A stretch of 64,000 bases of DNA from Winogradskyella sp. J14-2 (GCF_001971725.1 NZ_CP019388.1:992001-1056000); one strand, 5' to 3'. Positions 20,501 to 61,806 are shown, counted from the stretch's first letter. Numbers and translations are program-made. Notes: a model not told the origin generated them from the sequence alone.

Positions 20501-23500
20501 GGGCATCATTTCCAACTAAAGTTGAAGAGTCGACCGTCATAGTCCCTGAGCCGTTCCATAATCCACCACCTTCGGAAGCGGCTGTATTTTCATTAATTGT
20601 ACTACCAGTAACATCTACTGTTCCACTTCCGCTAACGTGCAGTCCACCACCATTACCAGGAGCACCAGCACCAGTTACAACACCTGTATCGTTAGAATTT
20701 AAAACCACATTAGTTAAGGTCACTGAACCCGTCCCGTTTGTTTCAATTCCACCACCGGCTCTATTAGATTGGTTATCTACAATTGTAGTGCCATTGGCAG
20801 TTAACGCACCTGAAGCATTTAAAATACCACCACCTGTAGATTGTGCACCATCAGCAATATTATTTACGATTGCTGTAGTACCTGAAATATTTACAGTACC
20901 ACCTTCATTATAGATTCCACCACCACCAGCAGCGCCTGGCGTCATGGCATCATTACCTGAAGCCACATTACTATTAATAGAATGATCTATTATGGTCATA
21001 ACTCCAGAACCGTTCCAAAGCCCACCGCCTTCATTGGCAGCTATGTTACTATTTGTTGTTCCTCCTGTAATATTTGTTGTTGCAGAACCTGTAACATGCA
21101 GACCTCCACCAGAACCTGGTGAAGCTACAGCAGGTGCAACACCAGCGTTATTGGAATTTAATGTTGTATCCACCAAGTTTAAAGTGCCGCCAGCAAGTTC
21201 AATTCCACCACCAGCTCTATTTGCACGATTTACTACGATGGATGCACCTGTAACAGTTACAGTGCCTCCAATACTTAATAAACCACCCCCTGAACCAGCA
21301 GCTCCGTCAGCAACATTATTGCTTAACGTTGTACCAGTTTCTACATTTAATGTACCTCCGTTATTAAAAATACCTCCACCACCATCGTCAGCGCCAGCAC
21401 CACTTGCAATATTGCCATCAATCGTAGTTCCTGTTACAGTCATTGTTCCTAAACCATTCCATAATCCACCACCTTCTCTGGCAGCCGTATTAAGGTTTAC
21501 TGTTCCACCTGTAATCATGGCATCTGCATTTCCTGTAATATGAAGTCCACCACCATTTCCTGGTGATGCACCTGTAGTATTTACATTTAAAGTTACTCCT
21601 GTAATTGTAAGCGTACCATCGATGGCTTCAATACCACCACCAGCTCTTACTGCATCGTTATTTGTAATCGTAATACCATCTAAGGTTACAGCACCATCTG
21701 TACTAAAAACACCACCACCAGAACCAGCAGTACCTATTGCACTGTTATTAGTGATACTTGTGCTTCCATTTACGTTTAAAGTTCCTCCATTATTGAAGAT
21801 GCCTCCACCTCCAGTATCGGCAGCATCACCTTCAGCAACGTTAAGGTTTAAAATCGTTCCTGTAACGGTCATTGTTCCTAGGTTATTCCAAAGCCCACCT
21901 CCTTCTGAGGCTGCGGTATTAGAATCGATATTACTATTTTGTATGTTAGCATTTGTTGTTCCTGAAAGGTGAATTCCACCACCATTTCCTGGATTTGCCA
22001 TAGTGCCCAAACCAATGTCTGAACCTGCTGAGTTACCAGAAAGCGTTACATTGTCCAACGTTAAGGTTCCACCAGAAGCATCTTCAATAGCACCACCAGC
22101 TCTACTTGCATAGTTTCCTGATATACTCAATTCTGGTGCAAGATTTAGTGTTCCTCCAGTTGTATTAAAAATACCACCACCACGACCACCTGGTGTGGCA
22201 GCCATTGCTATGTTTCCTGTTAACGTTGTTGCAGCATCAACATTTAGTGTTCCTCCATTATTGAACAATCCTCCTCCACCTGTAGCATTACCATTTGCGG
22301 TATTTCCTGTTATCGTTGTTCCGTTTATAGACATATCGCCAACACTATTCCAAAGTCCACCACCTTCAAAAGCGACATTATTTGAAACGGTTCCACCATT
22401 GTAAACTACGTCTCCAGGACCCGTAATATGGAATCCACCACCATTTCCTGGTGCTGGTCCGTTTACTATGTTTCCTATTAAACTAACATTATTAAATGTG
22501 TAAGTTTCACCACTACTACTTGCTATTTCAATTCCACCTCCTGCTCTGTTAGCGGTATTGTTTTCTATTGTTAAACCATCAATACTTAAGGTACCTGGTG
22601 ATAATGAAAATATTCCACCGCCAGAACCTAAAGTTCCGGAAGCTGTATTGTTTATAATTGTTGTAGCTGCCGTGACAATTAAAGCACCTCCGTTGTTATA
22701 AATTCCACCGCCACCTGTATCGGCTTCATTACCTTGAGCGTCGTTATTGGATATAGTCATGCCATCAACAGTCATTGTCCCAAAGCCATTCCAAAGTGCG
22801 CCACCTTCAAGCGCTGCAATATTTCCTGTTGCGGTACCACCTGTGATATTTACAGAGCCATTGCTAGACACATGAATTCCACCACCATTTCCAGGTGCTG
22901 CGGTAGCTGGCATAACACCTGCATTGTTATTTATTAAATCTACATTGTTTAAAGTGGTTGCCAAGCCCGTACCTGTTTTATCTTCGATACCTCCTCCAGC
23001 TCTATTAGCTATGTTGTTTGAAATTTCAGAATTATTAATCACCAATACTCCACCAACGTCGTTAAAGATACCTCCACCTGATCCGGCAGGAGAGCCTATT
23101 CCGTTGGCAATATTATTGGTTATAACTGAATTATTGATTGTTACTGTTGCGTTGGTCATATAAATACCACCACCATCAAACGCTAAACCATTTGTAATTG
23201 TTAAATCATTTAGCGTAACATTACCTGCTGTGATATTTAAGGCTCTTCCATTATTATTTGCATCGATAGTTACGGTTGTAATGGCTGTTCCGTTTATTGT
23301 TAAATCTTTATCTATTAACAATTCGCTGTTTAAAGTTACTGTTAATACTGACGGTGCAAATGTAATTGTACCACCAGCGGGTGTATCTGCAATTTCATTT
23401 CGCAGTGTTCCGTCGGTTCCATCATCTGCGCCGCTAGTAACAAGTTGGGCAAATGATAAGGATGAATGAAGTATTGCTATGAATACAGCAATAAGAGTAA

Positions 23501-23513
23501 TTTTGTGTTTCAT
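17514..23513 (-). CDS. Giant beta-helix repeat surface protein with T9SS type A sorting domain
   Basis: This 1999-residue protein has an N-terminal signal peptide (MKHKITLIAVFIAILHSSLS, ending in FAQ). Its body is an array of Gly/Asn/Thr-rich beta-helix repeats. The longer unit of about 145-150 residues recurs about 11 times, each marked by a version of EGGGLWN and by GNGGGxHxxG and RAGGGIE motifs. This resembles parallel beta-helix and polymorphic outer-membrane protein repeats. Near the C-terminus, GTSRDIGAFES matches the choice-of-anchor Q pattern. The last 75 residues (LSIYPNPTKGQFNI ... GIYLIKI ... YKLILD) are a T9SS type A sorting domain, so the protein should be exported by T9SS and anchored or released at the surface. 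It has very few Lys, Arg or Cys in the repeats. An adhesin or polysaccharide-binding role is inferred only. Confidence 0.88.
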   Translation of the reverse strand: MKHKITLIAVFIAILHSSLSFAQLVTSGADDGTDGTLRNEIADTPAGGTITFAPSVLTVTLNSELLIDKDLTINGTAITTVTIDANNNGRALNITAGNVTLNDLTITNGLAFDGGGIYMTNATVTINNSVITNNIANGIGSPAGSGGGIFNDVGGVLVINNSEISNNIANRAGGGIEDKTGTGLATTLNNVDLINNNAGVMPATAAPGNGGGIHVSSNGSVNITGGTATGNIAALEGGALWNGFGTMTVDGMTISNNDAQGNEADTGGGGIYNNGGALIVTAATTIINNTASGTLGSGGGIFSLSPGTLSIDGLTIENNTANRAGGGIEIASSSGETYTFNNVSLIGNIVNGPAPGNGGGFHITGPGDVVYNGGTVSNNVAFEGGGLWNSVGDMSINGTTITGNTANGNATGGGGLFNNGGTLNVDAATTLTGNIAMAATPGGRGGGIFNTTGGTLNLAPELSISGNYASRAGGAIEDASGGTLTLDNVTLSGNSAGSDIGLGTMANPGNGGGIHLSGTTNANIQNSNIDSNTAASEGGGLWNNLGTMTVTGTILNLNVAEGDAADTGGGGIFNNGGTLNVNGSTSITNNSAIGTAGSGGGVFSTDGAVTLDGITITNNDAVRAGGGIEAIDGTLTITGVTLNVNTTGASPGNGGGLHITGNADAMITGGTVNLNTAAREGGGLWNGLGTMTVTGTTIDGNIASGAGADDGGGGIFNNGGTLNVETGTTLSNNVADGAAGSGGGLLSIGGTVTVTGASIVVNRANRAGGGIELAGGTLNLVDTTLNSNNAGVAPAVASPGSGGGLHVTGSATTNITGGTTNSNIAANEGGGLWNGSGVMTIIDHSINSNVASGNDAMTPGAAGGGGIYNEGGTVNISGTTAIVNNIADGAQSTGGGILNASGALTANGTTIVDNQSNRAGGGIETNGTGSVTLTNVVLNSNDTGVVTGAGAPGNGGGLHVSGSGTVDVTGSTINENTAASEGGGLWNGSGTMTVDSSTLVGNDAQGDGADNGGGALFNNGGILIVQNNTTINGNTATGTAGSGGGIQNVDGGIVNVSDSFIILNTANRAGGGIEDNSTNAVGTITLTNVSLNENSVGSAPGNGGGFHITGPGNAAITGGTVNNNFAAAEGGGLWNGTGTMTVDGTIIDNNTASGASADQGGGGIFNAGGTVIVQGGTVITNNNADGAAGSGGGILNDMGTLTVINSQVNNNTAVRAGGGIEVASGGGMNTLTNVTLNGNSTGSAPGNGGGLHITGSDNSMITGGTVNGNTAASEGGGLWNGSGIMTVDGVNIENNTASGATADNGGGGIFNNGGTLIVQNGTIITSNLADGAAGSGGGIQNVDGGSVSVSDSSVTGNTSNRAGGGIEDNSTNGIGTITLVNVVLDNNTTGATPGNGGGLHITGPGNATVTGGTVNGNIAALEGGGLWNGSGTMTVNGTTIDNNTASGAAANEGGGGIFNAGGTVIVQGGSVITNNNADGAAGSGGGILNDMGTLTVINSQVNNNTAVRAGGGIEDNSVMGGLLTLTNTTLSGNTTGAAPGNGGGLHITGPGDSNITGGLVSMNNASREGGGLWNGSGVMTIDAVIIDSNTALGSSADDGGAGIFNNGGTLNVTNGTIVSNNIASGASASGGGLLSTTGDVTITDSTFDANSANRAGGAIELIDGNLMFMNSIMSNNDVDGGAGTANPGNGGGFHVTGTSGLITISTSTITGNSAANEGGGLWNQNGTVMTVSETTIDNNSASSGAGIYNNTGAITTVMTSTISGNVSSGSGGGARNDGATLEFNAVTIVNNTALGNGGGVYAANNVAFKNSIVALNTGANGNDVFGTLTSNDYNLIGTDDLGVFTPQANDIEGADPVIGPLQDNGGTTLTHQLLNGSPAFDAGDPVDTFLDQIGQPLFGTSRDIGAFESQIALSIDEFNNLSALSIYPNPTKGQFNIVIDESFTDEVNVEIISTTGKLVRALSIGNGINQIDIGGIASGIYLIKISSLRSTKTYKLILD
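18340..22810 (-). repeat. Imperfect tandem repeat, about 435-457 bp unit, 11 units
   Basis: The codons for EGGGLWN recur at roughly 18346, 18795, 19230, 19672, 20113, 20556, 21012, 21458, 21889, 22346 and 22790, a period of about 435-457 bases. Copies are diverged, unlike the near-identical array at 48239-55933. Two non-adjacent stretches near 19000 and 19890 are almost identical over about 120 bases. Confidence 0.75.
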
Positions 23514-40090: not shown

Positions 40091-40112
40091 ATTTAAAAGT
40101 AGACAGACGATT

Positions 40113-40455
40113 CCCTTCGGCTACGCTCAGGATAAACTTCTCGTCCTTTTAAATTAAAGTCAATAAAAAACCCTAACTACGTAAATTGTAATTAGAGTTT
40201 CAATTAGAGAGCCGATAGAGGGACTCCCTTCGGCTACGCTCAGGATAAACTTCTCGTCCTTTTAAATTAAAGTCAATAAAAAAAACCCTAACTACGTAAA
40301 TTGTAATTAGAGTTTCAATTAGAGAGCCGATAGAGGGACTCCCTTCGGCTACGCTCAGGATAAACTTCTCGTCCTTTTAAATTAAAGTCAATAAAAAAAA
40401 CCCTAACTACGTAAATTGTAATTAGAGTTTCAATTAGAGAGCCGATAGAGGGACT
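40113..40455. repeat. Tandem triplication, 113-116 bp unit, including the tRNA-Thr 3' end
   Basis: Three direct copies start at 40113, 40226 and 40341. Each contains a CCCTTCGGCTACGCTCAGG segment, a TAAATTAAAGTC stretch, the terminator-like hairpin, and then GCCGATAGAGGGACT, which is the 3' end of tRNA-Thr on the minus strand. Only the third copy continues into a complete tRNA gene (40441-40513). Copies differ mainly by the length of one A-run. Confidence 0.85.
40393..40430 (-). terminator. Terminator downstream of tRNA-Thr
   Basis: On the minus strand, CTCTAATTAC pairs with GTAGTTAGGG around a seven-base loop, followed by a run of eight T. It starts about 15 bases after the tRNA and is repeated in the other two tandem copies. 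Confidence 0.65.
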
Positions 40456-40513
40456 CGAACCCACGACCTGCTGATTACAAATCAGCTGCTCTAGCCAGCT
40501 GAGCTATATCGGC
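40441..40513 (-). tRNA. tRNA-Thr (anticodon TGT)
   Basis: The minus strand, 73 bases, folds as a cloverleaf. The acceptor arms are GCCGATA and TATCGGC. The D-arm includes AGCTCAGCTGGCTAGAGC. The anticodon arm CTGAT-TTGTAAT-CAG places TGT at the anticodon, and the T-arm has GTGGGTTCGAGTCCC. CCA is not encoded. Its 3' end is part of a tandem repeat running downstream. Confidence 0.93.
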
Positions 40514-42903: not shown

Positions 42904-44883
42904 TTATTCCTTATCGTCACAAGATTTACCATTTATACTTGTAATGATAAACTCACTACGTCTATTAAGTTGATGCTCTTCTTCAGAACAGCTAGACTCA
43001 TTTGTTGGTTCACAGCCACAATCGTTAACTAACTGTGACTCTCCGTAGCCTTTAGCTGTTAATCGCTCTGCTGCAATACCGTTATCTATTAAGTATTGAC
43101 GCGTAGATTTAGCTCTTCTATCAGATAATCTCTCATTATAGTCTGCTAGTCCTCTACAGTCTGTATGCGAACGAATATCTATATGCATTGTTGGATATTT
43201 ATTCAGTACAGCCAACACTTTTTGTAGCTCAATCTCGGCATCGTATCTAATATTAGACTTATCAAAATCAAAATAAATGATAGGAATGTCTAAAATCTTC
43301 GCTAAATCATCGCAAGGGTTGATTTCTTGTACATCCTTTTCTAAAAGCAATTGCAACTGCAATTCTTGCTTTTTCTTAGGTGTAGTAAAACGTTTTTCAT
43401 CAGAAATATAAGTGTCTTTTTCACCTCTAATTAGATATTCCATTTCACAATCTAGCTCAAATTCAAAAACTGCATCTTCGCCAACAGTTTTGCGCTCTAT
43501 TTCTTTTCCTTCACCATCAAATAGAATAACTGTTGCATTTGGTATAAGCTCGTCAGTTTTTTTGTCTTGAACTGTTCCAAAAACTAACTGCTCACATTCT
43601 GGTACTTCAAACGTGTAGATATCATCACTGCCTTTACCTCCTTCTCTATTAGAACTAAAATATACACGTTTTGTTACTAGGTTTTGGTAATATCCAAAAT
43701 CGTCTGCAGAACTATTTACAGGCATTCCAATATTTTCAATAGGAAAATTTCTATTAGAACCTGCTGCTACTTTTTGGTCTAATTCTTCGGATTTATAAAC
43801 ATCTAAGCCACCTAATCCTGGGAAACCTGTTGAAGAAAAGAATAAATTACCACTGGTATCCATAAATGGAAAAGATTCTTGTCCTTCGGTATTTACAGAA
43901 GGGCCAAGATTTTCTGGTTTTCCGAGCGTACCATCATCGTTGACATCTACCACAAAAATATCGGACTGACCGTATGTACCTGGCATATCTGAAGCAAAAT
44001 ATAGGCGTGTACCTGTTAAATTTAATGTAGGGTGCGCAACACTGTAATCTTCGCTATTAAAATGAACTTTGTGAATCTCATCCCAAGTACCGTCCTCACT
44101 TAATGTAGCTCTGTATAATTGTAATCTATTAATCCCTGTACCATCTTCTTTATACTTTAATCTATAGAAGTTATTTCTGGTAAAAAACATGTATTTACCA
44201 TTTGGTGAAAACACAGCACTAGATTCGTGATATTTTGTATTTACTTTTCCTTCAACTTCTTTTACTTCTCCAAAACCATTTTCAGTTTTTTCTGCTACAT
44301 ATAAATCTAAATATGGCTCTTCATTCCAACGGTATTTACGACCTCCTCCTCTGGCTGAAGCAAACACAATTCCATTTTCGTATTCTGTAGTACCAAAATC
44401 TGAAAGTTCTGTATTTATTTCTAAATTCTGAACCTCAATATCATCACGACTTTGTTCCTGAATATTAGTTCTATAATCTACTCTAGAAAGAAATGCTCTA
44501 CCTCTCATATCGTCTGGCTTAAGCTCATTGAACTTCTTCATCCACTTATCAGACTCTTCATAGTTTTCAATGCCTTTGAGTGCTAAGGCATACCTAAAAT
44601 AATATTCGGGATCAATAACTTCGTTCATTGTAAATAGCTCGCCATACCACTTGGCTGCATTTGCCATATCATTTCTAAAATAATATGAATTTGCCAACTT
44701 CTGAAATAGGTCTGCAGACTTATAACCTTTATTGGCGACTTCTAAAAGGACTTCACTTGTTTTTACGTAAGCAAAGTCTCTGTAGTCGTCTTCAACACTT
44801 TTTATTTTGCCGTTTTGAGTATAGGCAGATACAGCAAATATACCTGCACAAACTAAACTTATATATCTTGAAATTGTTCTCAT
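42904..44883 (-). CDS. OmpA-family protein with TPR and PD40 propeller regions
   Basis: The 659-residue protein has a signal peptide (MRTISRYISLVCAGIFAVSA). Residues about 40-130 are TPR-like. Residues about 150-420 are PD40-type beta-propeller blades (FSPNGKYMFFTRN, LTGTRLYFASDMPG, NLFFSSTGFPGLGG). About residues 430-510 form a carboxypeptidase-regulatory-like domain. The C-terminal OmpA domain (about 535-655) has the peptidoglycan-binding motif DYNERLSDRRAKSTRQYL. It follows PorP/SprF by 10 bases. This trio of giant cargo, SprF-like and OmpA/PD40 protein is typical of T9SS type B cargo loci in Bacteroidetes. It is inferred to link the export of the giant protein to the cell wall. Confidence 0.88.
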   Translation of the reverse strand: MRTISRYISLVCAGIFAVSAYTQNGKIKSVEDDYRDFAYVKTSEVLLEVANKGYKSADLFQKLANSYYFRNDMANAAKWYGELFTMNEVIDPEYYFRYALALKGIENYEESDKWMKKFNELKPDDMRGRAFLSRVDYRTNIQEQSRDDIEVQNLEINTELSDFGTTEYENGIVFASARGGGRKYRWNEEPYLDLYVAEKTENGFGEVKEVEGKVNTKYHESSAVFSPNGKYMFFTRNNFYRLKYKEDGTGINRLQLYRATLSEDGTWDEIHKVHFNSEDYSVAHPTLNLTGTRLYFASDMPGTYGQSDIFVVDVNDDGTLGKPENLGPSVNTEGQESFPFMDTSGNLFFSSTGFPGLGGLDVYKSEELDQKVAAGSNRNFPIENIGMPVNSSADDFGYYQNLVTKRVYFSSNREGGKGSDDIYTFEVPECEQLVFGTVQDKKTDELIPNATVILFDGEGKEIERKTVGEDAVFEFELDCEMEYLIRGEKDTYISDEKRFTTPKKKQELQLQLLLEKDVQEINPCDDLAKILDIPIIYFDFDKSNIRYDAEIELQKVLAVLNKYPTMHIDIRSHTDCRGLADYNERLSDRRAKSTRQYLIDNGIAAERLTAKGYGESQLVNDCGCEPTNESSCSEEEHQLNRRSEFIITSINGKSCDDKE

Positions 44884-44893
44884 AGTCTTATTT

Positions 44894-45820
44894 TTAGAAG
44901 AAACGTGGTGATAAAATTCTACCTAATCGCTTCACTTCAAATCTTAAAGTTATTTCGTGAGTTCCACCATTATAGTTATTTAAACCTGTTGTTGTTAAAT
45001 CATAACCGTAACCAATAAACATTCCTGGCGTTGCTTGAAAACCTACAAGAGCACTCACAGAATCATCCCATCGCCATGCCAAACCAGCTGTTAAATTCTT
45101 TTTATACCAGAAATTGGCGGACACATCAGCAATTAAGGGTGCACCAGAAACTCCTTTTACCAAAAATGCAGGTTTTAACTCTAAAGTTTCACTAAGGTTA
45201 AATACATAACCACCTATAGCGTAGAAGTGCATGCGCTCTGTAGCTCTAGATTCTTGAAAATCGTCATAGTGTTCCGTTTCTAAAAAGTTTGGCACAGCTA
45301 AACCTAAATACCATTTTCTGGTGTGCATGTATAATCCTGCTCCAACAGTTGGTGATATTAAATTTACATTTTCGTTAAACACATTATCTGGATCTTGGAA
45401 ACGACCTTTACTCCAATCTAAGTCTAACATATGCAATCCACCTTTTACACCAAATGATAATTTTAAATCATTGGCATTTAAAGGAATAGTATATGAAAAA
45501 TTAGCATCAATAAAATTTTCTCTCGCAGGCCCTAATGCATCACTTACAATATTTAGACCCAAACCTATACGCTCGTTGCGCAAAGGTGAGTGAATACCCA
45601 AGGATTGTGTTTGTGGTGCACCATCAATACCAACCCATTGTGATCTATGCAAACCTACAACACTCAGTGTTTCTCGTTGTCCGGCATAAGCTGGATTTAC
45701 ACTTAATGTATTATACATATAATGCGTGTATTGAGGATCTTGCTGGGCATTTAAATCCGTTGCTAATAGTGCAGTAAACACCATTAAAATTAAACTTGCT
45801 TTTGATAATATACGTATCAT
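44894..45820 (-). CDS. PorP/SprF family type IX secretion membrane protein
   Basis: The 308-residue protein has a signal peptide (MIRILSKASLILMVFTALLA, then TDLNAQ) and the PorP/SprF signature QDPQYTHYMYNTLSVNPAYAGQR just after cleavage, followed by a barrel-like series of beta strands with GLHRSQWVGIDGAPQTQ and a Phe-terminated C-end. The family forms small outer-membrane barrels required for secretion or attachment of a linked T9SS type B cargo (SprF for SprB). It lies 29 bases downstream of the 5318-residue cargo gene. sprF is not assigned, because orthology cannot be shown by eye. Confidence 0.92.
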   Translation of the reverse strand: MIRILSKASLILMVFTALLATDLNAQQDPQYTHYMYNTLSVNPAYAGQRETLSVVGLHRSQWVGIDGAPQTQSLGIHSPLRNERIGLGLNIVSDALGPARENFIDANFSYTIPLNANDLKLSFGVKGGLHMLDLDWSKGRFQDPDNVFNENVNLISPTVGAGLYMHTRKWYLGLAVPNFLETEHYDDFQESRATERMHFYAIGGYVFNLSETLELKPAFLVKGVSGAPLIADVSANFWYKKNLTAGLAWRWDDSVSALVGFQATPGMFIGYGYDLTTTGLNNYNGGTHEITLRFEVKRLGRILSPRFF

Positions 45821-45849: not shown

Positions 45850-48800
45850 TTATCTATTTATATATAACCATCCTACTCTTGGCTCAGATCCATCGCCTAA
45901 ATCTAGAACATAATAATATGTCCCTACAGGTAACTGATCAGATTGATTAATTACTGCTCTACCATTAGAAGTGCCATCCCAATCGTTCAGATATCCATTT
46001 TTAGAATAAACAATGTTACCCCATCTATTATAAACTTCTAATTTGTTGTTTGAGAATCGCTCTATACAATCAATGACAAAGGTCTCATTAACTCCGTCAC
46101 CATTTGGTGAAAATTCATTATAGATTGTTAGACATATTGGATCTACCGTTGCTGTATCTTCATCATTTGAAGGATTAATGTCATTACCGCCATCTGCATT
46201 ATTTACAAATGCTGTGTTGGCATAATCACCAATGCCTAATACCTCTACAGTTATTTCAAGAATTTCTACCTGATCAGGATCTAACTGACCAACTGTCCAT
46301 TCGCCATCAAACTCTGAATATGTTCCTGCAGTCGTAATTGCAGAAACAAACATGTAACCCGTTGGAATTTCTTCACTTATAATGACGTTGGTAGCTGTTA
46401 CGTTACCAATGTTAGCTACTTCTATAGTAAATGTAACTTCGTCTCCTACTACTGGTCTTACTTCATCTACAACTTTAGTTACTTCTAAATCAAATATTGA
46501 ATTAACTGGTGTTACGGTTGGATCATCTGGTTCACCATCACCGTTATCATCATTATCATTAGCATCATTAGGATCATCACTAGTATCTCTTACATCATCT
46601 GTTGGATCACCTAAATCGCCACCTGGACTCTCAGCTGTTACGTTTGCAGAATTTATTACAAATCCTGTATCTAAATCAACTTGAGTAATCTCATAAGTCG
46701 CTGTAAATGTTGTACTGTCAACATCACCAGGAAGCAACTGTGCAATAGGTCCGCCAACTAAGTTTATACCTGGCAACAGGTCTTCAACTTCAATATTAGT
46801 TAATGTAACATTACCTGTATTCTCAACTATAAATACATATGAAATTTCGTCACCTAAACTTCCTTCAATACCATCGCCATTTGTATCTGCAAGTGGTAAG
46901 GTAGTTTTGATGAGACTTATCATAGGAACTTGGATAATCTCAGTATCGGTAGGATCATCCGTACCTGTTGGATCTGTTGGGTCATCACTATCATCAGCTA
47001 CTCCGCCACCTAATGGATCAGAACCATTGGCTAGAGCCTGATTTGTTACTATACCTGCATCAATATCTGCCTGTGTAAGTGCATATGTTGCCGTAAATAC
47101 AATTGGATTCTGAGGTGAAACAGCAAGATCATCTATTTGTGAATCTCCATCTTCGTCACTACCTCCACTTTGATAGACTGGTATTGGTAATATTCCTGTT
47201 CCAGTAAAGTCAGCTGCATCCTCAGTAACACTAACATCAAATACTGTTGTATTTCCTGTATTGGTAACTGTATAAGTATATGTTATTATATCACCAACAG
47301 TTGCTATACCATCTGCACCTAAGTCTAAGCTACTAGTCTTCTCAATAGCCAAACTAGGATCTTGTGGAATCGTCGTATCTGTTGGATCATCTGTACTAGT
47401 AGGATCTGCTGGATCATCACTATCATCAGTTACTCCTCCACCTAATGGATCAGTTCCATTGGTGCTAGCCTGGTTTGTTACTATACCTGCATCAATATCT
47501 GCCTGGGTGATTGCGTAGGTTGCAGTATAAACTATAGTTCCTGAACCAACAACCATATCTTCTAAGTCAGATTCACCATCTTCATCACTACCACCACTTT
47601 GATATACTGGTGTTGGTAATGTTCCTGTTCCAGTAAAGTCAGCTGCATCCTCAGTGACATTAACATCAAATACTGTTGTATTTCCTGTATTGGTCACTGT
47701 ATAAGTATATGTTATTATATCACCAACAGTTGCAATTCCATCTGCACCTAAGTCTAAACTACTAGTTTTCTCAATTGCTAAACTAGGATCTTGTGGAATC
47801 GTCGTATCTGTTGGATCATCTGTACTAGTAGGATCTGTTGGATCATCACTATCATCAGTTACTCCTCCACCTAATGGATCGGTTCCATTAGCTATCGCCT
47901 GATTTGTTACGATGCCGGCATCAATATCTGCTTGTGTGATAGCGTAGGTTGCTGTATAAACTATTGTTCCTGAACCTACAATCATGTCTTCTAAGTCAGA
48001 CTCACCATCTTCATCACTACCACCACTTTGATAAACTGGTGTTGGTAATGTTCCTGTTCCAGTAAAGTCAGCTGCATCCTCAGTAACATTAACATCAAAT
48101 ACTGTTGTATTTCCTGTATTTGTAACTGTATAAGTATATGTTATTATATCACCAACAGTTGCAATTCCATCTGCACCTAAGTCTAAACTACTAGTTTTCT
48201 CAATTGCTAAACTAGGAGCTTGAATAATAATGGTTTCCGTCGGATCGTCTTCCGTGTTGCCATCCGTGTCATCTCCATCATCACTCGTGTCATCGACATT
48301 GGTATCCGCAGGACTGTCTCCATCAGCTAATACACTGTTGCTAAAGCCTCCGGCATCTACGGCCGCCTGCTCGATAACATAGGTCGCTGTATACGTCGCT
48401 GTCTCGCCGACTAATAAGTCGCCTTCTAAACTGCCGGCATCTGCACTCACGAACGTTGGGCCGGTTAATAAGGTCAGTGGGTTGCCGTTGGCATCCTCGA
48501 ACGTGTCCACAATACCGACTCCATCTAAGGTCACATTTCCTGTGTTGGTTACCGTGATCGTATATTCTACCGTATCTCCTAAACTTGCTCCTGCTGGTGC
48601 TACATCATTGGTGATCGCTACGGTCTTGACCGCCTCGATACTTGGGGCTTCCGCGATGGTCGTCTCTGTCGGATCGTCTTCCGTGTTCCCATCCGTGTCA
48701 TCACCATCATCACTCGTGTCATCGACATTGGTATCCGCAGGACTGTCTCCATCGGCTAATACACTGTTGCTAAAGCCTCCGGCATCTACGGCCGCCTGCT

Positions 48801-51800
48801 CGATAACATAGGTCGCTGTATACGTCGCTGTCTCGCCGACTAATAAGTCGCCTTCTAAACTGCCGGCATCTGCACTCACGAACGTTGGGCCGGTTAATAA
48901 GGTCAGTGGGTTGCCGTTGGCATCCTCGAACGTGTCCACAATACCGACTCCATCTAAGGTCACATTTCCTGTGTTCGTTACCGTGATCGTATATTCTACC
49001 GTATCTCCTAAACTTGCTCCTGCTGGTGCTACATCATTGGTGATCGCTACGGTCTTGACCGCCTCGATACTTGGGGCTTCCGCGATGGTCGTCTCTGTCG
49101 GATCGTCTTCCGTGTTCCCATCCGTGTCATCACCATCATCACTCGTGTCATCGACATTGGTATCCGCAGGACTGTCTCCATCGGCTAATACACTGTTGCT
49201 AAAGCCTCCGGCATCTACGGCCGCCTGCTCGATAACATAGGTCGCTGTATACGTCGCTGTCTCGCCGACTAATAAGTCGCCTTCTAAACTGCCGGCATCT
49301 GCACTCACGAACGTTGGGCCGGTTAATAAGGTCAGTGGGTTGCCGTTGGCATCCTCGAACGTGTCCACAATACCGACTCCATCTAAGGTCACATTTCCTG
49401 TGTTGGTTACCGTGATCGTATATTCTACCGTATCTCCTAAACTTGCTCCTGCTGGTGCTACATCATTGGTGATCGCTACGGTCTTGACCGCCTCGATACT
49501 TGGGGCTTCCGCGATGGTCGTCTCTGTCGGATCGTCTTCCGTGTTCCCATCCGTGTCATCACCATCATCACTCGTGTCATCGACATTGGTATCCGCAGGA
49601 CTGTCTCCATCGGCTAATACACTGTTGCTAAAGCCTCCGGCATCTACGGCCGCCTGCTCGATAACATAGGTCGCTGTATACGTCGCCGTCTCGCCGACTA
49701 ATAAGTCGCCTTCTAAACTGCCGGCATCTGCACTCACGAACGTTGGGCCGGTTAATAAGGTCAGTGGGTTGCCGTTGGCATCCTCGAACGTGTCCACAAT
49801 ACCGACTCCATCTAAGGTCACATTTCCTGTGTTGGTTACCGTGATCGTATATTCTACCGTATCTCCTAAACTTGCTCCTGCTGGTGCTACATCATTGGTG
49901 ATCGCTACGGTCTTGACCGCCTCGATACTTGGGGCTTCCGCGATGGTCGTCTCTGTCGGATCGTCTTCCGTGTTCCCATCCGTGTCATCACCATCATCAC
50001 TCGTGTCATCGACATTGGTATCCGCAGGACTGTCTCCATCGGCTAATACACTGTTGCTAAAGCCTCCGGCATCTACGGCCGCCTGCTCGATAACATAGGT
50101 CGCTGTATACGTCGCTGTCTCGCCGACTAATAAGTCGCCTTCTAAACTGCCGGCATCTGCACTCACGAACGTTGGGCCGGTTAATAAGGTCAGTGGGTTG
50201 CCGTTGGCATCCTCGAACGTGTCCACAATACCGACTCCATCTAAGGTCACATTTCCTGTGTTGGTTACCGTGATCGTATATTCTACCGTATCTCCTAAAC
50301 TTGCTCCTGCTGGTGCTACATCATTGGTGATCGCTACGGTCTTGACCGCCTCGATACTTGGGGCTTCCGCGATGGTCGTCTCTGTCGGATCGTCTTCCGT
50401 GTTCCCATCCGTGTCATCACCATCATCACTCGTGTCATCGACATTGGTATCCGCAGGACTGTCTCCATCGGCTAATACACTGTTGCTAAAGCCTCCGGCA
50501 TCTACGGCCGCCTGCTCGATAACATAGGTCGCTGTATACGTCGCTGTCTCGCCGACTAATAAGTCGCCTTCTAAACTGCCGGCATCTGCACTCACGAACG
50601 TTGGGCCGGTTAATAAGGTCAGTGGGTTGCCGTTGGCATCCTCGAACGTGTCCACAATACCGACTCCATCTAAGGTCACATTTCCTGTGTTCGTTACCGT
50701 GATCGTATATTCTACCGTATCTCCTAAACTTGCTCCTGCTGGTGCTACATCATTGGTGATCGCTACGGTCTTGACCGCCTCGATACTTGGGGCTTCCGCG
50801 ATGGTCGTCTCTGTCGGATCGTCTTCCGTGTTCCCATCCGTGTCATCACCATCATCACTCGTGTCATCGACATTGGTATCCGCAGGACTGTCTCCATCGG
50901 CTAATACACTGTTGCTAAAGCCTCCGGCATCTACGGCCGCCTGCTCGATAACATAGGTCGCTGTATACGTCGCTGTCTCGCCGACTAATAAGTCGCCTTC
51001 TAAACTGCCGGCATCTGCACTCACGAACGTTGGGCCGGTTAATAAGGTCAGTGGGTTGCCGTTGGCATCCTCGAACGTGTCCACAATACCGACTCCATCT
51101 AAGGTCACATTTCCTGTGTTCGTTACCGTGATCGTATATTCTACCGTATCTCCTAAACTTGCTCCTGCTGGTGCTACATCATTGGTGATCGCTACGGTCT
51201 TGACCGCCTCGATACTTGGGGCTTCCGCGATGGTCGTCTCTGTCGGATCGTCTTCCGTGTTCCCATCCGTGTCATCACCATCATCACTCGTGTCATCGAC
51301 ATTGGTATCCGCAGGACTGTCTCCATCGGCTAATACACTGTTGCTAAAGCCTCCGGCATCTACGGCCGCCTGCTCGATAACATAGGTCGCTGTATACGTC
51401 GCCGTCTCGCCGACTAATAAGTCGCCTTCTAAACTGCCGGCATCTGCACTCACGAACGTTGGGCCGGTTAATAAGGTCAGTGGGTTGCCGTTGGCATCCT
51501 CGAACGTGTCCACAATACCGACTCCATCTAAGGTCACATTTCCTGTGTTGGTTACCGTGATCGTATATTCTACCGTATCTCCTAAACTTGCTCCTGCTGG
51601 TGCTACATCATTGGTGATCGCTACGGTCTTGACCGCCTCGATACTTGGGGCTTCCGCGATGGTCGTCTCTGTCGGATCGTCTTCCGTGTTCCCATCCGTG
51701 TCATCACCATCATCACTCGTGTCATCGACATTGGTATCCGCAGGACTGTCTCCATCGGCTAATACACTGTTGCTAAAGCCTCCGGCATCTACGGCCGCCT

Positions 51801-54800
51801 GCTCGATAACATAGGTCGCTGTATACGTCGCCGTCTCGCCGACTAATAAGTCGCCTTCTAAACTGCCGGCATCTGCACTCACGAACGTTGGGCCGGTTAA
51901 TAAGGTCAGTGGGTTGCCGTTGGCATCCTCGAACGTGTCCACAATACCGACTCCATCTAAGGTCACATTTCCTGTGTTGGTTACCGTGATCGTATATTCT
52001 ACCGTATCTCCTAAACTTGCTCCTGCTGGTGCTACATCATTGGTGATCGCTACGGTCTTGACCGCCTCGATACTTGGGGCTTCCGCGATGGTCGTCTCTG
52101 TCGGATCGTCTTCCGTGTTCCCATCCGTGTCATCACCATCATCACTCGTGTCATCGACATTGGTATCCGCAGGACTGTCTCCATCGGCTAATACACTGTT
52201 GCTAAAGCCTCCGGCATCTACGGCCGCCTGCTCGATAACATAGGTCGCTGTATACGTCGCTGTCTCGCCGACTAATAAGTCGCCTTCTAAACTGCCGGCA
52301 TCTGCACTCACGAACGTTGGGCCGGTTAATAAGGTCAGTGGGTTGCCGTTGGCATCCTCGAACGTGTCCACAATACCGACTCCATCTAAGGTCACATTTC
52401 CTGTGTTCGTTACCGTGATCGTATATTCTACCGTATCTCCTAAACTTGCTCCTGCTGGTGCTACATCATTGGTGATCGCTACGGTCTTGACCGCCTCGAT
52501 ACTTGGGGCTTCCGCGATGGTCGTCTCTGTCGGATCGTCTTCCGTGTTCCCATCCGTGTCATCACCATCATCACTCGTGTCATCGACATTGGTATCCGCA
52601 GGACTGTCTCCATCGGCTAATACACTGTTGCTAAAGCCTCCGGCATCTACGGCCGCCTGCTCGATAACATAGGTCGCTGTATACGTCGCCGTCTCGCCGA
52701 CTAATAAGTCGCCTTCTAAACTGCCGGCATCTGCACTCACGAACGTTGGGCCGGTTAATAAGGTCAGTGGGTTGCCGTTGGCATCCTCGAACGTGTCCAC
52801 AATACCGACTCCATCTAAGGTCACATTTCCTGTGTTGGTTACCGTGATCGTATATTCTACCGTATCTCCTAAACTTGCTCCTGCTGGTGCTACATCATTG
52901 GTGATCGCTACGGTCTTGACCGCCTCGATACTTGGGGCTTCCGCGATGGTCGTCTCTGTCGGATCGTCTTCCGTGTTCCCATCCGTGTCATCACCATCAT
53001 CACTCGTGTCATCGACATTGGTATCCGCAGGACTGTCTCCATCGGCTAATACACTGTTGCTAAAGCCTCCGGCATCTACGGCCGCCTGCTCGATAACATA
53101 GGTCGCTGTATACGTCGCTGTCTCGCCGACTAATAAGTCGCCTTCTAAACTGCCGGCATCTGCACTCACGAACGTTGGGCCGGTTAATAAGGTCAGTGGG
53201 TTGCCGTTGGCATCCTCGAACGTGTCCACAATACCGACTCCATCTAAGGTCACATTTCCTGTGTTCGTTACCGTGATCGTATATTCTACCGTATCTCCTA
53301 AACTTGCTCCTGCTGGTGCTACATCATTGGTGATCGCTACGGTCTTGACCGCCTCGATACTTGGGGCTTCCGCGATGGTCGTCTCTGTCGGATCGTCTTC
53401 CGTGTTCCCATCCGTGTCATCACCATCATCACTCGTGTCATCGACATTGGTATCCGCAGGACTGTCTCCATCGGCTAATACACTGTTGCTAAAGCCTCCG
53501 GCATCTACGGCCGCCTGCTCGATAACATAGGTCGCTGTATACGTCGCCGTCTCGCCGACTAATAAGTCGCCTTCTAAACTGCCGGCATCTGCACTCACGA
53601 ACGTTGGGCCGGTTAATAAGGTCAGTGGGTTGCCGTTGGCATCCTCGAACGTGTCCACAATACCGACTCCATCTAAGGTCACATTTCCTGTGTTGGTTAC
53701 CGTGATCGTATATTCTACCGTATCTCCTAAACTTGCTCCTGCTGGTGCTACATCATTGGTGATCGCTACGGTCTTGACCGCCTCGATACTTGGGGCTTCC
53801 GCGATGGTCGTCTCTGTCGGATCGTCTTCCGTGTTCCCATCCGTGTCATCACCATCATCACTCGTGTCATCGACATTGGTATCCGCAGGACTGTCTCCAT
53901 CGGCTAATACACTGTTGCTAAAGCCTCCGGCATCTACGGCCGCCTGCTCGATAACATAGGTCGCTGTATACGTCGCCGTCTCGCCGACTAATAAGTCGCC
54001 TTCTAAACTGCCGGCATCTGCACTCACGAACGTTGGGCCGGTTAATAAGGTCAGTGGGTTGCCGTTGGCATCCTCGAACGTGTCCACAATACCGACTCCA
54101 TCTAAGGTCACATTTCCTGTGTTGGTTACCGTGATCGTATATTCTACCGTATCTCCTAAACTTGCTCCTGCTGGTGCTACATCATTGGTGATCGCTACGG
54201 TCTTGACCGCCTCGATACTTGGGGCTTCCGCGATGGTCGTCTCTGTCGGATCGTCTTCCGTGTTCCCATCCGTGTCATCACCATCATCACTCGTGTCATC
54301 GACATTGGTATCCGCAGGACTGTCTCCATCGGCTAATACACTGTTGCTAAAGCCTCCGGCATCTACGGCCGCCTGCTCGATAACATAGGTCGCTGTATAC
54401 GTCGCCGTCTCGCCGACTAATAAGTCGCCTTCTAAACTGCCGGCATCTGCACTCACGAACGTTGGGCCGGTTAATAAGGTCAGTGGGTTGCCGTTGGCAT
54501 CCTCGAACGTGTCCACAATACCGACTCCATCTAAGGTCACATTTCCTGTGTTCGTTACCGTGATCGTATATTCTACCGTATCTCCTAAACTTGCTCCTGC
54601 TGGTGCTACATCATTGGTGATCGCTACGGTCTTGACCGCCTCGATACTTGGGGCTTCCGCGATGGTCGTCTCTGTCGGATCGTCTTCCGTGTTCCCATCC
54701 GTGTCATCACCATCATCACTCGTGTCATCGACATTGGTATCCGCAGGACTGTCTCCATCGGCTAATACACTGTTGCTAAAGCCTCCGGCATCTACGGCCG

Positions 54801-57800
54801 CCTGCTCGATAACATAGGTCGCTGTATACGTCGCTGTCTCGCCGACTAATAAGTCGCCTTCTAAACTGCCGGCATCTGCACTCACGAACGTTGGGCCGGT
54901 TAATAAGGTCAGTGGGTTGCCGTTGGCATCCTCGAACGTGTCCACAATACCGACTCCATCTAAGGTCACATTTCCTGTGTTGGTTACCGTGATCGTATAT
55001 TCTACCGTATCTCCTAAACTTGCTCCTGCTGGTGCTACATCATTGGTGATCGCTACGGTCTTGACCGCCTCGATACTTGGGGCTTCCGCGATGGTCGTCT
55101 CTGTCGGATCGTCTTCCGTGTTCCCATCCGTGTCATCACCATCATCACTCGTGTCATCGACATTGGTATCCGCAGGACTGTCTCCATCGGCTAATACACT
55201 GTTGCTAAAGCCTCCGGCATCTACGGCCGCCTGCTCGATAACATAGGTCGCTGTATACGTCGCCGTCTCGCCGACTAATAAGTCGCCTTCTAAACTGCCG
55301 GCATCTGCACTCACGAACGTTGGGCCGGTTAATAAGGTCAGTGGGTTGCCGTTGGCATCCTCGAACGTGTCCACAATACCGACTCCATCTAAGGTCACAT
55401 TTCCTGTGTTGGTTACCGTGATCGTATATTCTACCGTATCTCCTAAACTTGCTCCTGCTGGTGCTACATCATTGGTGATCGCTACGGTCTTGACCGCCTC
55501 GATACTTGGGGCTTCCGCGATGGTCGTCTCTGTCGGATCGTCTTCCGTGTTCCCATCCGTGTCATCACCATCATCACTCGTGTCATCGACATTGGTATCC
55601 GCAGGACTGTCTCCATCGGCTAATACACTGTTGCTAAAGCCTCCGGCATCTACGGCCGCCTGCTCGATAACATAGGTCGCTGTATACGTCGCTGTCTCGC
55701 CGACTAATAAGTCGCCTTCTAAACTGCCGGCATCTGCACTCACGAACGTTGGGCCGGTTAATAAGGTCAGTGGGTTGCCGTTGGCATCCTCGAACGTGTC
55801 CACAATACCGACTCCATCTAAGGTCACATTTCCTGTGTTGGTTACCGTGATCGTATATTCTACCGTATCTCCTAAACTTGCTCCTGCTGGTGCTACATCA
55901 TTGGTGATCGCTACGGTCTTGACCGCCTCGATAGCTGGCATCTCAATACCATTAACCGTTTCAATATCATCACTATCTACCGGTGTATCACCAGAAGCGT
56001 CATTTGTTGTATCTGCAGAACCATCAGCTTCAGCAGTATTAGTATAAGAGCCATTATCTAAATCTATTTGTGTAACCGTGTGAGAAACAGTGTATGTCCA
56101 TACCTCATCTACTTCTAGAACTGCATCGTCATTACCTGGTGCATCAGCTCCTCTAACTGGCGCTGTATCTGCAGTGGTATCTACCATTGTTGGATTATAG
56201 ACGTCAACATTTCCAGAGTTGGTTAATGTGATTGTGTAATTGATAACCTGATTAAGAGCACTGTACTCTGTAATTAAAGGATCACCATTTATATTTAGAA
56301 ATGTTTTTACGGTAGTTATGCTAGGATTAATAACACAACTTGTTGCAACACTTGGATCAGTGACAGCTGCGTTGGTTCCTGTAGAGTAGTCCACACCTGT
56401 TTCTGTAACTAGACCTGTATTAGGATCAACTAATGCGGGATCTGGCTCCCCAAATTGTCCACCATCAGAACCTGAGACAAAAGGATTATCGTAGGCCTCA
56501 TTTGCGTCTGGACAACTATCACCATCACTATCAGTATTTTGAAAATCGAAACTACCGTCACTACCTGTATCTATTGGTGTTGTTGCTTCTGCTGTATCAT
56601 CTGCACCATTTCCATTTCCATCATTAAAAGTTGTGTCATTAGAATCCAAGACTCCATCATCGTTGGTATCTAAAGTGCCATTTCCTGCTTCATCAACATC
56701 ATAAATACCATCATTATCGGAGTCTAAATCAAAAATATCATCAACTCCATCACCATCAGTATCTAATCCAAGACAATATTCGAATTCATAGAATTGTAAT
56801 TCAACATTTCCTGCATTACCATTTTGTTTTCCGACCGTGACCACAATGTCAGTAACTGGTCCTAATATTTCTATTTGTATACTATTAAAAGGAGCGTTAG
56901 CGTTAGCCGAAGAACCGGTTACTGCACTTTGCCCATTGATAGTTAAATTAGCACCTACATTTATATCGGAAATATTTACTGGTATATTTTGTAAGCCATT
57001 TGTTGCCGTAAAATCTGCTCTATCAGAGTCGTCTAACCCACCAACTTTAAAGTTTACGTTGTAAACAGGTTCAGTAAATGTAAAATAATAGTTTACAACT
57101 TCACCATTTGGAAAATCTGTTCCGTCTGGTATTGTATTGATAAACGCACCATCCGGTAAAATTGCCCCATTATTTTGACTTGAAACTCCACCGTTCCAAG
57201 CAACACCTCCTCTTAACTCGTACCCAAAAGTAACACTAGCACCATTATAGGGGAACAAGTTTGGAATAAATTCTGGATTAAAGTTTGAACCTGTAGCGTC
57301 GGCAAAAGTCTGCCCTAAAGCTATTGGGCCTGCAGAACAATCTAGCTCATTAATGTCTAGAATACCATCATTATCATCATCTACATCACAAATATCTGAA
57401 ACATTATCACCATCATTATCATCATTACCTGAAATCGTAGCATCACATGGGTTACATGCTGGAGAAAGCAATGGGTTTACAACTGCGGTATTTGTGCCAA
57501 TACTATAATTAACATCTCCATCTATGACTAGGCCATTAGCATCGACATTGGCAGGGTCGGGTTCTCCAAACTGACCGTTGTCTGTACCTGCCGCATTTAC
57601 GTTACCGTAGGCTTCGTTTGCATCGGCACATCCATCACCGTCACTATCTGTATTTTGATAATCGAAACTACCATCGTTTAACGTATCTATTGGTGTTATT
57701 CCAGTTCCGGCAGTTGATGGTATCCCTGTTACAGGATCTACAGCTCCATCTGCCATGCCATCGTTATTTACATCTATGCCACCTACTTCATCTACATCAA

Positions 57801-60800
57801 AAATACCATCATTATCTGAGTCTAGATCGACGATATCGTTAATACCATCTCCATCTGTATCTATTGCGACACAGTACTGCATTTCATAGAATTGTAATTC
57901 TACATTAGCAGTTTCATCCCCATTTTGTTTACCAACAGTAATAACGATTTCTGTTACAGGCCCTACAACTTGTATGGCTATACTATTTGCAGGTGCATTT
58001 GCGCTTGCAGACGCACCAGTGACTGCGCTCTGACCATTTATAGTGAGATTTGCACCTATATTTATATCTGATAAATTTACTGGTACATTATCTGAACCAT
58101 TGGTTGCAAAAAAATCAGCTCTATCAAAATCATCAAGACCACCTAATTTGAAATTGACATTATAAACTGGCTCTGTAAAGGTAAAATAATACCTAACAAC
58201 TTCATTTTCAGGAAAAGTTGTACCATCTGCTATTGTATTGATATATTCCCCATCTGGTAATATACCAGCGGTGTTTTGGTTGGAAACACCACCATTCCAC
58301 GCTGACCCGCCAAATAACTCGTATCCAAATGTTGCGCTTACACCGTTATAAGCATAAACGTTTGTTATAAACTCAGCATTAAAATTGGATCCTGTATTAT
58401 CAGAGAAAGTTTGACCTAGTGCTAATGGTCCAGAAGAACAGTCTATATCATTGACATCTAAAATACCGTCATTATCATCGTCTTGGTCACAATAATCGGT
58501 TATACCATCACCATCAGTATCTAAACCTCCAGAGGCCAAGGCATCACATGGGTCTATATTTGCTACAACAATAGTCGCAACTGCAGTATCACAAACTGTA
58601 TTGTCTGCTTGTAAGCATATTGTGTATTCCACGAAATATGTACCATTTGGGGTATTTGGTGGTATAACTATAGTACCATTGTTATTAATAACAACACCTG
58701 TCATACCTCCATCATTACTTATACTAATATTATTTGAGATATTACCATTAGTAGCTGCAACACCGTTTGCTAAATCTGTACCACTGCTATTATCTGCAAA
58801 CACACTAGCTGTTGTTGATCCAGGTATTAAACTATTTATTGGTGTCGCAGAGAAGTCATCATCGTTAGCAGTAATTGTAAGACAACCTCCATCTAAAAGT
58901 GTAAAAGCATCTGAACTAATATTTTGACATGAAGGAGAACCAATATATCTTACTGCAGCGTTGTATGTTCCAGGACCAACATTGTTAAACACATTGGAAG
59001 CTTGCCATGGACCTGCGGCTCCATTAATACTATATTCTAATGGACCACCACCATTATCTGTTGCATCTATGGTAATTGTACCTTCATTTGCTGGACACAC
59101 TGGTTGTGTAAAAGACGTGGACAAAGAAATAGTAGGCGGAGGTGTTAAGAAAAATGGATCGTATACTATAAATACTTTACCATCACCACCATCACCACCA
59201 CTAGCACCAGATTGGGTTAAACGTACACCATTGATTGGTACATTAGGACCCACAAAAGCCGTTAGAGGATATATAGTTGCAAAAACCTGCTGTCCGTTGT
59301 TATTATTAACTCCAGTACCAATATATGTAGTTGGCCCATCTGCTCCGCTAACCTGATTGATTGGTTGTGGCGTACCGATTACGTTTCCTGTTGCATCAAT
59401 TGCCTGAACTTCCATAGTGTTATTACCACCACGCTCTGTAATAATAACATACCTATTAGAAGCAGCATTAATATCATAGTTAAACTCGAAATTCACATAA
59501 TCTGTTGCAAAAATATTACCATCATTTCTGAAATAATGGTTTAAATTTCTATCTGTATTTGCTGCAATTAGAGCAGGATCGAAAATGGCTGATCCATCTG
59601 TAATATCGGCTCCATCTACACCATTTTCTATAATACTTTGGTTTGTTGCTGTGGGCGTAGAGTAAGAATACGAAATATTGTCTGGTACTAATAAATCCGT
59701 AAAAGGATTTGGTTCACCAGCGATTGATATAGAATTAAATATTTTTGGAGAGCTATTGCCCGCAGGATTAGTGATATTAAACGAAACATTACCCGCTACC
59801 AAAGGGGCCGCAGGGCTACCAGGTGGAATAACATCTGGACACTCATCGTCACTACACTCAAAAGGTGCATTAACAACCGAATTATTAGTTAGCGTACAAG
59901 CACCATCATTAGAAAACGTTGCTGTTAATGAAATTGCACTACCATTAGCAGGCAGAGTCACACCTGTAAATGTATGTGGTGAGGTTAAACCTACCACAGA
60001 AACAGAAGCAGTACCATCACCAGATAAATCTAGAGTACCGACTCCAGGTGCATTAGTAAAAGTTACTGTTATATCTGCCGTAAAGGTATCATCACTAATA
60101 TTATCTGGTGTTAGGTTATCATTACAAACAGATTCATTAGAAGAACTTATTGCTGTGATATCACAATTTGCTACTAATTCGATGATTACATTTGCTGTAG
60201 TACATATAGTTTCATTTGGAGCATTTAAACAAATCTCATACGTTACTGTATAAGTTCCTGCAGTTGCGCCTGCTGGCACATCTATTGTTCCGTCTGTATT
60301 AATAGAAACACCTGTTAAGCCTCCATTGTTACTAATATTTATATTATCATTAATATTTGCGTCTGTTGCTGGTGAACCATCCGATTCATCAATACCATTC
60401 CCGTTGTCTGCAAAAACACTAGCGGTAGTACCGCCAGTAATCGCATCAAATGGTGAACCACTAAAATCATCATCTAAAGCTAAAATTGTTGGTTGAGATC
60501 CGCAAAGCTCTACTGTTGCAGGTATAACACATTCAAACACATTTCCAGATCCTGTGGTTAAACCACCGGTACTTCCACTTGTAATATGTCCCACAAAACA
60601 AATTGAACCACCACCAGCTCTATTGAAAAATGTCATTGCATGACCACCCACGCTCACGTAAACTGGATCGTCTACACCGACATTGAATGACGGAGGAATA
60701 GTTGGATTTTGAATAACAGCATTGCCACCTTGACCGATAGAGTTTTGATTATTCCAACCCCAACTATATATGATATAAGGATCAGAGGGTAACGCTGGTT

Positions 60801-61806
60801 CAACAAGTACTGCAGCTGCAGCCCATTCTTCCGAAGTATGTGTGGTTGATAATTGGATAACTCCTATAAGATCACTCATGCCCGAATTATCTTGTATTGC
60901 CGTCCATGAAGTAACAACACCAGAACCCGTAGTTATTAATTCTCCAAGTGTATTATCTCCTACACCATAAACTTTTGTATCAGTTGCCAACAATAATAGA
61001 CCTGTATCACCATCATTGTGTGTAAACGAAGATATTTCTTTCACTGGTGCTGGTGGAGTAGCCATTAAAGTTGCAAAGTCTAGGTTTTGAGCGGGACTAC
61101 CATCACCAATTACCACATTATCTCCCCATGTATAAATATCACCATTAGACAAAAGTGCATAACCAGCATATTTATTACCAGTTATATTGATTACTCCAGT
61201 AAGAGGAACTCCAGCAGATGTCTGTACCTGTTGCCAAATATTTCCATTGGTACTGTTATTACCACTTGGTGCTGTCGTGCCTGTTGTAGCAACCCAAACT
61301 TCTCCTGCAGCAATTACAAAAAGCACATCTGAACTGGCATGCATTTGTGTAATGTCAGCTGAATTAAAAGGTAGAGTCTGAGTAGCATCCATATCATTAA
61401 ACCCTATTCCAGAGACAAAGTCACCATCAACAACTTCGCCAACACCACCCCAAGCATACAAACTAACAGTAGTAGCTAAGAAACCTTGCCCATCTGAATT
61501 ACCAGAGAGTGCAAAGTGCAAGGGAGTTCCCGAGTAATTGTAACCATTTGCTGGTGTAACTTCCGTAATGACATTGGCATTACCTCCGTTTGCAGCCATA
61601 TCTTCACCCCAAGCCACAATACCAGTAGTGGTTTTAGCCATCGATTGATGATAAGAGGTCATCAGTACATCTGTTTCAGGATTAAATATACCGTCTTCAT
61701 TAATAGTTGGACAGCCTTGGGCTTTAATTGTAATAGAATGGAAAAAGACAAATCCTAAACATATGTAGGCTAAGCTTAAATTAGAGAATCGAGTAGAGAT
61801 TTTCAT
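45850..61806 (-). CDS. Giant T9SS type B repeat adhesin-like protein (5318 residues)
   Basis: The N-terminus ([20 protein letters not shown] ... KAQG) is a signal peptide. Residues about 40-430 hold RCC1-like propeller repeats ([37 protein letters not shown]). Residues about 440-1130 are beta-sandwich and anchor-type domains. About 1100-1780 contain two related modules joined by TSP3-like calcium motifs ([20 protein letters not shown]). Residues about 1957-4523 are 18 copies of a 143-residue DUF11/DUF7507-like domain ([18 protein letters not shown]) with Asp-rich linkers. Three related repeats and two further DUF11-like domains follow. The last 95 residues ([17 protein letters not shown] ... 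[12 protein letters not shown]) are the gliding-motility-associated T9SS type B tail. It is co-transcribed with PorP/SprF and OmpA genes. An adhesin or motility role is inferred. Confidence 0.93.
46926..48222 (-). repeat. Three diverged 429-432 bp repeats next to the main array
   Basis: Three copies of a DUF11-like unit (beginning [20 protein letters not shown]) differ mainly in linker and a few residues. The period is close to that of the main array, about 143-144 residues, but base composition is AT-rich like the rest of the genome. Confidence 0.8.
48239..55933 (-). repeat. Tandem array of 18 near-identical 429-bp units
   Basis: Eighteen in-frame 429-base units (143 residues) are almost identical. 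Most differences are two synonymous Thr-codon sites. The lowest unit has a few more changes and is about 27 bases short. GC is about 53% (224 of 420 bases counted at 48901-49320) against about 40% in one adjacent non-array line. Units begin [16 protein letters not shown] and end in an Asp/Thr-rich linker. Confidence 0.95.

Follow-up and report, generated by a model that had tools for sequence, protein, structure and literature searches.

What raises the GC content of a long run of near-identical repeats inside a single gene of an AT-rich chromosome: descent from a foreign, GC-richer donor, or a process acting on the repeats where they stand? The question arises from a locus in the closed 3.35-Mb genome of Winogradskyella sp. 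J14-2 (G000 below), of which we analysed a window of 64,000 nucleotides (NZ_CP019388.1:992001-1056000), the whole stretch to which coordinates refer unless another locus is named. A first-pass annotation had described 18 near-identical 429-bp units of foreign-looking composition there, and had suggested a GC-richer source for the founding unit, followed by amplification.

Eighteen units with a composition of their own

The units lie on the minus strand within a 5318-aa ORF (45850-61806). TRF reports 17.9 copies of 429 bp at 48239-55933 (99% match), and an in-frame count gives 18 units at 48211-55932, in agreement with the annotation. Seventeen of them encode the same 143 aa and form the homogeneous array proper (48640-55932, minus strand, GC3 0.52), while the end part of the 18th (48211-48639) is a junction with the next, AT-rich repeat type and carries 15 nucleotide differences. 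Outside this tail, the units vary just at positions 93 (C/G) and 240 (A/G), both synonymously, and all four combinations (CA, CG, GA and GG) occur intermingled from one end of the array to the other, a four-gamete pattern that indicates recombination between units.

Array GC is 52.7% and GC3 0.517, compared to 38-39% with GC3 of 0.20 and 0.16 in the flanks of the same gene, and to 35% and 0.26 in coding DNA sampled from the chromosome, much as first estimated by hand (~53% in the units, ~40% in a flank, the chromosome lower). The composition edges are sharp at the array borders, and none of 5809 windows of 143 codons from 250 kb of the same genome equals the array, the highest GC3 being 0.434. 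Codon choice had also been called odd, but the detail given was wrong: on the coding strand the units are not of the CTC and CCG types, CTC being absent, Leu encoded by TTA in 8 of 9 cases, Pro mostly by CCA and Ser by AGT, and it is ACG, ACC, GCG, GCC, ATC, AAC, GGC and GTC that carry the GC3 excess. Elsewhere in the window, the gene for a 1999-aa Gly/Asn-rich parallel beta-helix protein with diverged repeats and a Por_Secre_tail (17514-23513) has a native GC3 of 0.20, and its raised GC is due to amino acid composition only.

The protein that carries the array

Judged by its domains, the giant ORF is a type IX secretion system (T9SS) surface protein of the CHU_C kind with Ig-like DUF7507 modules, for which secretion and display are predicted. 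The DUF7507 profile (PF24346) matched three units in three stretches with 202.9 bits, and the C-terminal CHU_C domain (PF13585, 45859-46128) scored 102.7 bits, the cut-off being 27 bits for each. From a lone diverged DUF7507 domain upstream of the array (55969-56265, GC3 0.21), the order runs through the DUF7507 units to three older, AT-rich DUF7507 repeats of 143-144 aa (46924-48210, GC3 0.12-0.14), which serve as an internal control, then to a DUF11 domain (PF01345, 46144-46491) and CHU_C, all on the minus strand. Next on this strand come genes for a PorP/SprF-family outer-membrane protein (44894-45820, ~30 bp downstream) and an OmpA-family protein with PD40 and TPR (42904-44883). We take CHU_C cargo followed by PorP/SprF and OmpA to be the usual arrangement for a T9SS-secreted surface protein.

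AlphaFold models the units as Ig-like beta-sandwich modules (mean pLDDT 77.6) joined by an Asp-rich linker with pLDDT below 50. A PDB sequence search gave nothing convincing, while comparison of folds yielded weak matches to integrin alpha and transglutaminase beta domains. We infer a stalk or adhesin built of repeats; on the model, a putative stiffening of such a stalk by calcium at the Asp-rich linkers is plausible.

The array is native to the genus

The foreign-founder explanation, in which one unit was taken from a GC-richer organism and then amplified, would account for the outlying composition and its sharp edges, and alphaproteobacterial plasmids do carry distant DUF11/DUF7507 relatives. 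However, plasmid relatives outside Flavobacteriaceae are less than 50% identical, and the protein search proposed earlier for finding the closest relatives of a unit led instead to congeners, up to 90% identical in amino acids and located at the syntenic locus, AT-rich ones among them. Relatives of the unit were found in 41 of 60 congeneric genomes, and the orthologous locus in 18, this one included, with PorP/SprF 30-38 bp downstream wherever read and a unit GC3 ranging from 0.07 to 0.62. Nor is the codon use, with its preference for TTA, that of a GC-rich donor, and the rise in GC recurs in dozens of unrelated arrays (below). Genus distribution, synteny and codon make-up led us to reject a foreign donor of the unit, and the claimed origin of the array is accordingly very improbable.

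Within the genus, single-copy forms of the unit make up an AT-rich clade (GC3 0.07-0.15). Long arrays reach a GC3 of 0.52 in this genome, 0.50 in G011 and 0.47 in G026, but of just 0.20 in G046 and 0.17 in G016. In the unit tree the GC-rich units (these first three and those of G023, 0.62) form no clade, which rules out a single ancestral GC-rich clade as their source, and the units closest to those of G000 are from G046, the nearest, and from G015 (0.34). G033, close to G011 by PorP, has amplified another DUF7507 domain into 23 near-identical units with a GC3 of 0.30; its single copy of the G000-type unit has 0.12.

Concerted evolution of the units, with greater likeness within a genome than between orthologues, and with recombination, is supported on several counts, and homogenisation as first proposed thus holds: besides the two shuffled polymorphisms, adjacent units are 99.5% identical in nucleotides, as against 67-87% amino acid identity to units of congeners, and orthologous arrays in other species are near-identical inside and different between species. 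Distances between units do not correlate with those between the PorP neighbours (rho 0.04); either units have therefore passed from one lineage to another, or lineages have kept different units of an older, diverse array. G023 and G000 are an example, their PorP being 98% identical and their array units just 77%, which suggests that array units were replaced wholesale or sorted between these lineages. In many draft genomes of congeners, contig ends fall inside the array, suggesting that homogeneous arrays are common in congeners but unassembled.

GC rises with homogenisation in giant repeat genes

We surveyed 69 giant ORFs from 39 genomes, mostly CHU_C or DUF7507 ORFs of Flavobacteriaceae, picked regardless of GC; the larger part came from complete genomes and were CHU_C ORFs of ~2480 aa or more, and the L181 array, masked with N, was left out. 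Each codon was scored by the highest identity between the 240 nt around it and any other place in the same ORF. Relative to the non-repetitive codons of the same ORF, GC3 was unchanged (~0) up to 75% local identity and then rose by 0.036 (bin to 85%), 0.052 (92%), 0.104 (97%) and 0.123 (100%), the excess in the top bin being positive in 45 of 47 ORFs. Amino acid composition is ruled out as the cause by an amino acid-matched expectation, over which near-identical copies still showed a GC3 excess of 0.122 (positive in 44 of 46 ORFs, Wilcoxon p=7e-13). C3 and G3 were both up in homogeneous arrays, and GC at positions 1 and 2 was higher in homogeneous than in diverged repeats in 28 of 36 ORFs. With Winogradskyella left out, 40 of 44 ORFs from 33 genomes remained positive, and a validation set defined in advance was positive in 11 of 13 cases (mean +0.064, p=0.003). 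The rise is thus strongly tied to homogenisation.

It was seen with DUF7507, Ig_7, HYR, Big_9/cadherin, TSP3 and Calx-beta repeats, and the strongest GC3 contrasts between array and rest were 0.60/0.11 (L172), 0.61/0.25 (L217) and 0.57/0.21 (L221). L172 (genome G126), the strongest case, is an 8565-aa open frame with ~20 units of 357 bp. An unrelated 1883-aa protein of the Winogradskyella genome analysed here (L143:5946-11595) contains four units of 654 bp with GC3 of 0.34 as against 0.18. In L183 (G117), codons ~1600-1800 form an isolated patch of GC3 0.79 on cadherin/Big-like domains with no matching array, which may be a former or collapsed array. Among strictly non-coding arrays, the sole clear case is in the window at 40112-40456, where three 115-bp copies, 99% identical, overlap or abut a tRNA-Thr (UGU) at ~40440-40513 and have a GC of 0.37, compared to 0.29 in neighbouring intergenic DNA. 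GC-rich hosts with suitable arrays were very few (0.93 to 0.96 in one).

Homogeneity is not sufficient for the rise, as three genomes show: the 30 units of L213 (G104) are 99% identical with a GC3 of 0.09 as against 0.11, both very homogeneous arrays of G325 (L202 and L203) gain just 0.01, and the array of the congener G046 (18 units, 97% identical) just 0.03. The flat arrays L213, L202 and L203 may be of recent origin, or their hosts may be without the bias. The size of the effect is clustered by genome (p=0.013), as a trans-acting property of repair would give.

Because GC-rich units might recombine or amplify more readily, causality could in principle run the other way, with arrays GC-rich from birth, and correlation alone does not fix the direction. 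Yet 19 of 45 ORFs, the present one among them, have an array whose GC3 exceeds that of all non-homogeneous 120-codon windows in the ORF, so that no native founder is visible in them, and the present array also exceeds every window sampled from its own genome. We therefore consider selection of GC-rich founders improbable.

Direction of change and codon tests

On the branch leading to the G000 array, the polarised third-position changes comprise 42 W>S, two S>W and five within-class substitutions. Branch changes were counted by parsimony on overlapping trios, and these counts set the GC-rich branches apart from the rest both at third positions (p=3e-9) and at positions 1 and 2 (58:40 as against 56:70, p=0.03). 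Rare-variant spectra within arrays were balanced, without clear bias.

Within one and the same protein, diverged repeats of a domain show no such rise, which excludes domain identity and amino acid demand as causes. Translational selection was likewise rejected, the GC rise being uncorrelated with ribosomal-protein codon preference (Spearman -0.05). A broader form of selection, for GC or for particular codons through mRNA stability, spurious promoters or translation, could be amplified by copy number, a change in 18 copies having 18 times the effect. Like biased conversion, it would scale with the number of homogenised copies, and selection made efficient by recombination is what Bobay and Ochman prefer, as cited in PMC6867656. 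Codon families also differ, some shifting and others (Tyr, Cys, Pro CCG and Ser TCN) not, which implies context dependence. This selection would, however, have to act without regard to ribosomal-protein codon preference and to favour ACG and GCG, for which no cognate CGT or CGC anticodon occurs among the tRNAs read (30 of 39 tRNA loci); first and second positions shift too, and the effect depends weakly on the number of copies (rho 0.21, p=0.13). Copy-number-amplified selection is thus unlikely, though it deserves some weight.

Recombination might also introduce the bias through mutation, if error-prone repair synthesis made A/T to G/C changes. Its predictions are nearly those of biased conversion, from which the within-array spectrum does not set it apart. 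Against it, we know of no W>S repair mutagenesis in this group. Spontaneous mutation, moreover, is generally AT-biased according to PMC8153448, and we hold a mutational origin of the rise to be improbable as well.

A model of biased conversion

Long-term concerted evolution with GC-biased gene conversion is probably the best explanation of the GC-rich array. The DUF7507 module would have existed in the genus as a tandem array for a long time, with gene conversion and unequal crossing over between units keeping them identical. If the repair step of recombination favoured G/C over A/T at mismatches, homogenised units would drift to high GC over time, and single-copy and diverged repeats would stay AT-rich. 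The link of GC to homogenisation is observed; that biased conversion, and not another recombination-linked GC bias, causes it is what we infer. More generally, and with slightly less assurance, near-identical intragenic tandem arrays may on balance be gauges of GC-biased gene conversion whose strength depends on the genome, synonymous and partly non-synonymous sites climbing, in the strongest cases, from ~10-20% to 50-60% GC.

GC-biased gene conversion is a matter of dispute in bacteria. Lassalle et al. 2015 (PMC4450053) make a case for it, Bobay and Ochman 2017 reject it according to the summary in PMC6867656, and Ely 2021 (PMC8153448) states that bacteria have not been observed to show it. 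Arrays of the present kind could help settle the dispute: their gene's own flanks and diverged repeats serve as a built-in control, and their GC3 shifts by up to 0.5, which makes bacterial GC-biased conversion directly testable. If the model is true, they give direct evidence that bacterial conversion is biased, and they would account for many of the GC islands in giant genes that look foreign. They are also a warning against taking an odd composition of repeat genes for horizontal transfer.

Comparison with known systems

The protein belongs to a known type, and its composition is apparently a new, seemingly general form of a known but disputed process. With the SprB-like T9SS type B giant surface proteins of Flavobacteriaceae it shares the CHU_C end, the adjacent PorP/SprF and repeated Ig-like modules, to which it adds an extended array of near-identical DUF7507 units whose GC3 is far higher than the genome's. 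As in concerted evolution of the rDNA type, units are more alike within a genome than between species, but the present array sits inside one protein-coding gene. We found no earlier report of GC-enriched homogenised intragenic arrays in bacteria in the open literature, from which papers that are not open may differ. In the system of Lassalle et al. 2015 (PMC4450053), GC is likewise higher under intense recombination and independent of codon optimality, but that study compares core genes between strains and makes no mention of tandem arrays or repeats, whereas here the arrays are intragenic and tandem, the flanks provide an internal control and the shift is much larger. The closest analogue is found in the palindromes of mammalian sex chromosomes (X), whose copies are kept more than 99% identical by conversion and are enriched in GC (PMC8981503); those are eukaryotic, and the repeats described here are bacterial, tandem and coding.
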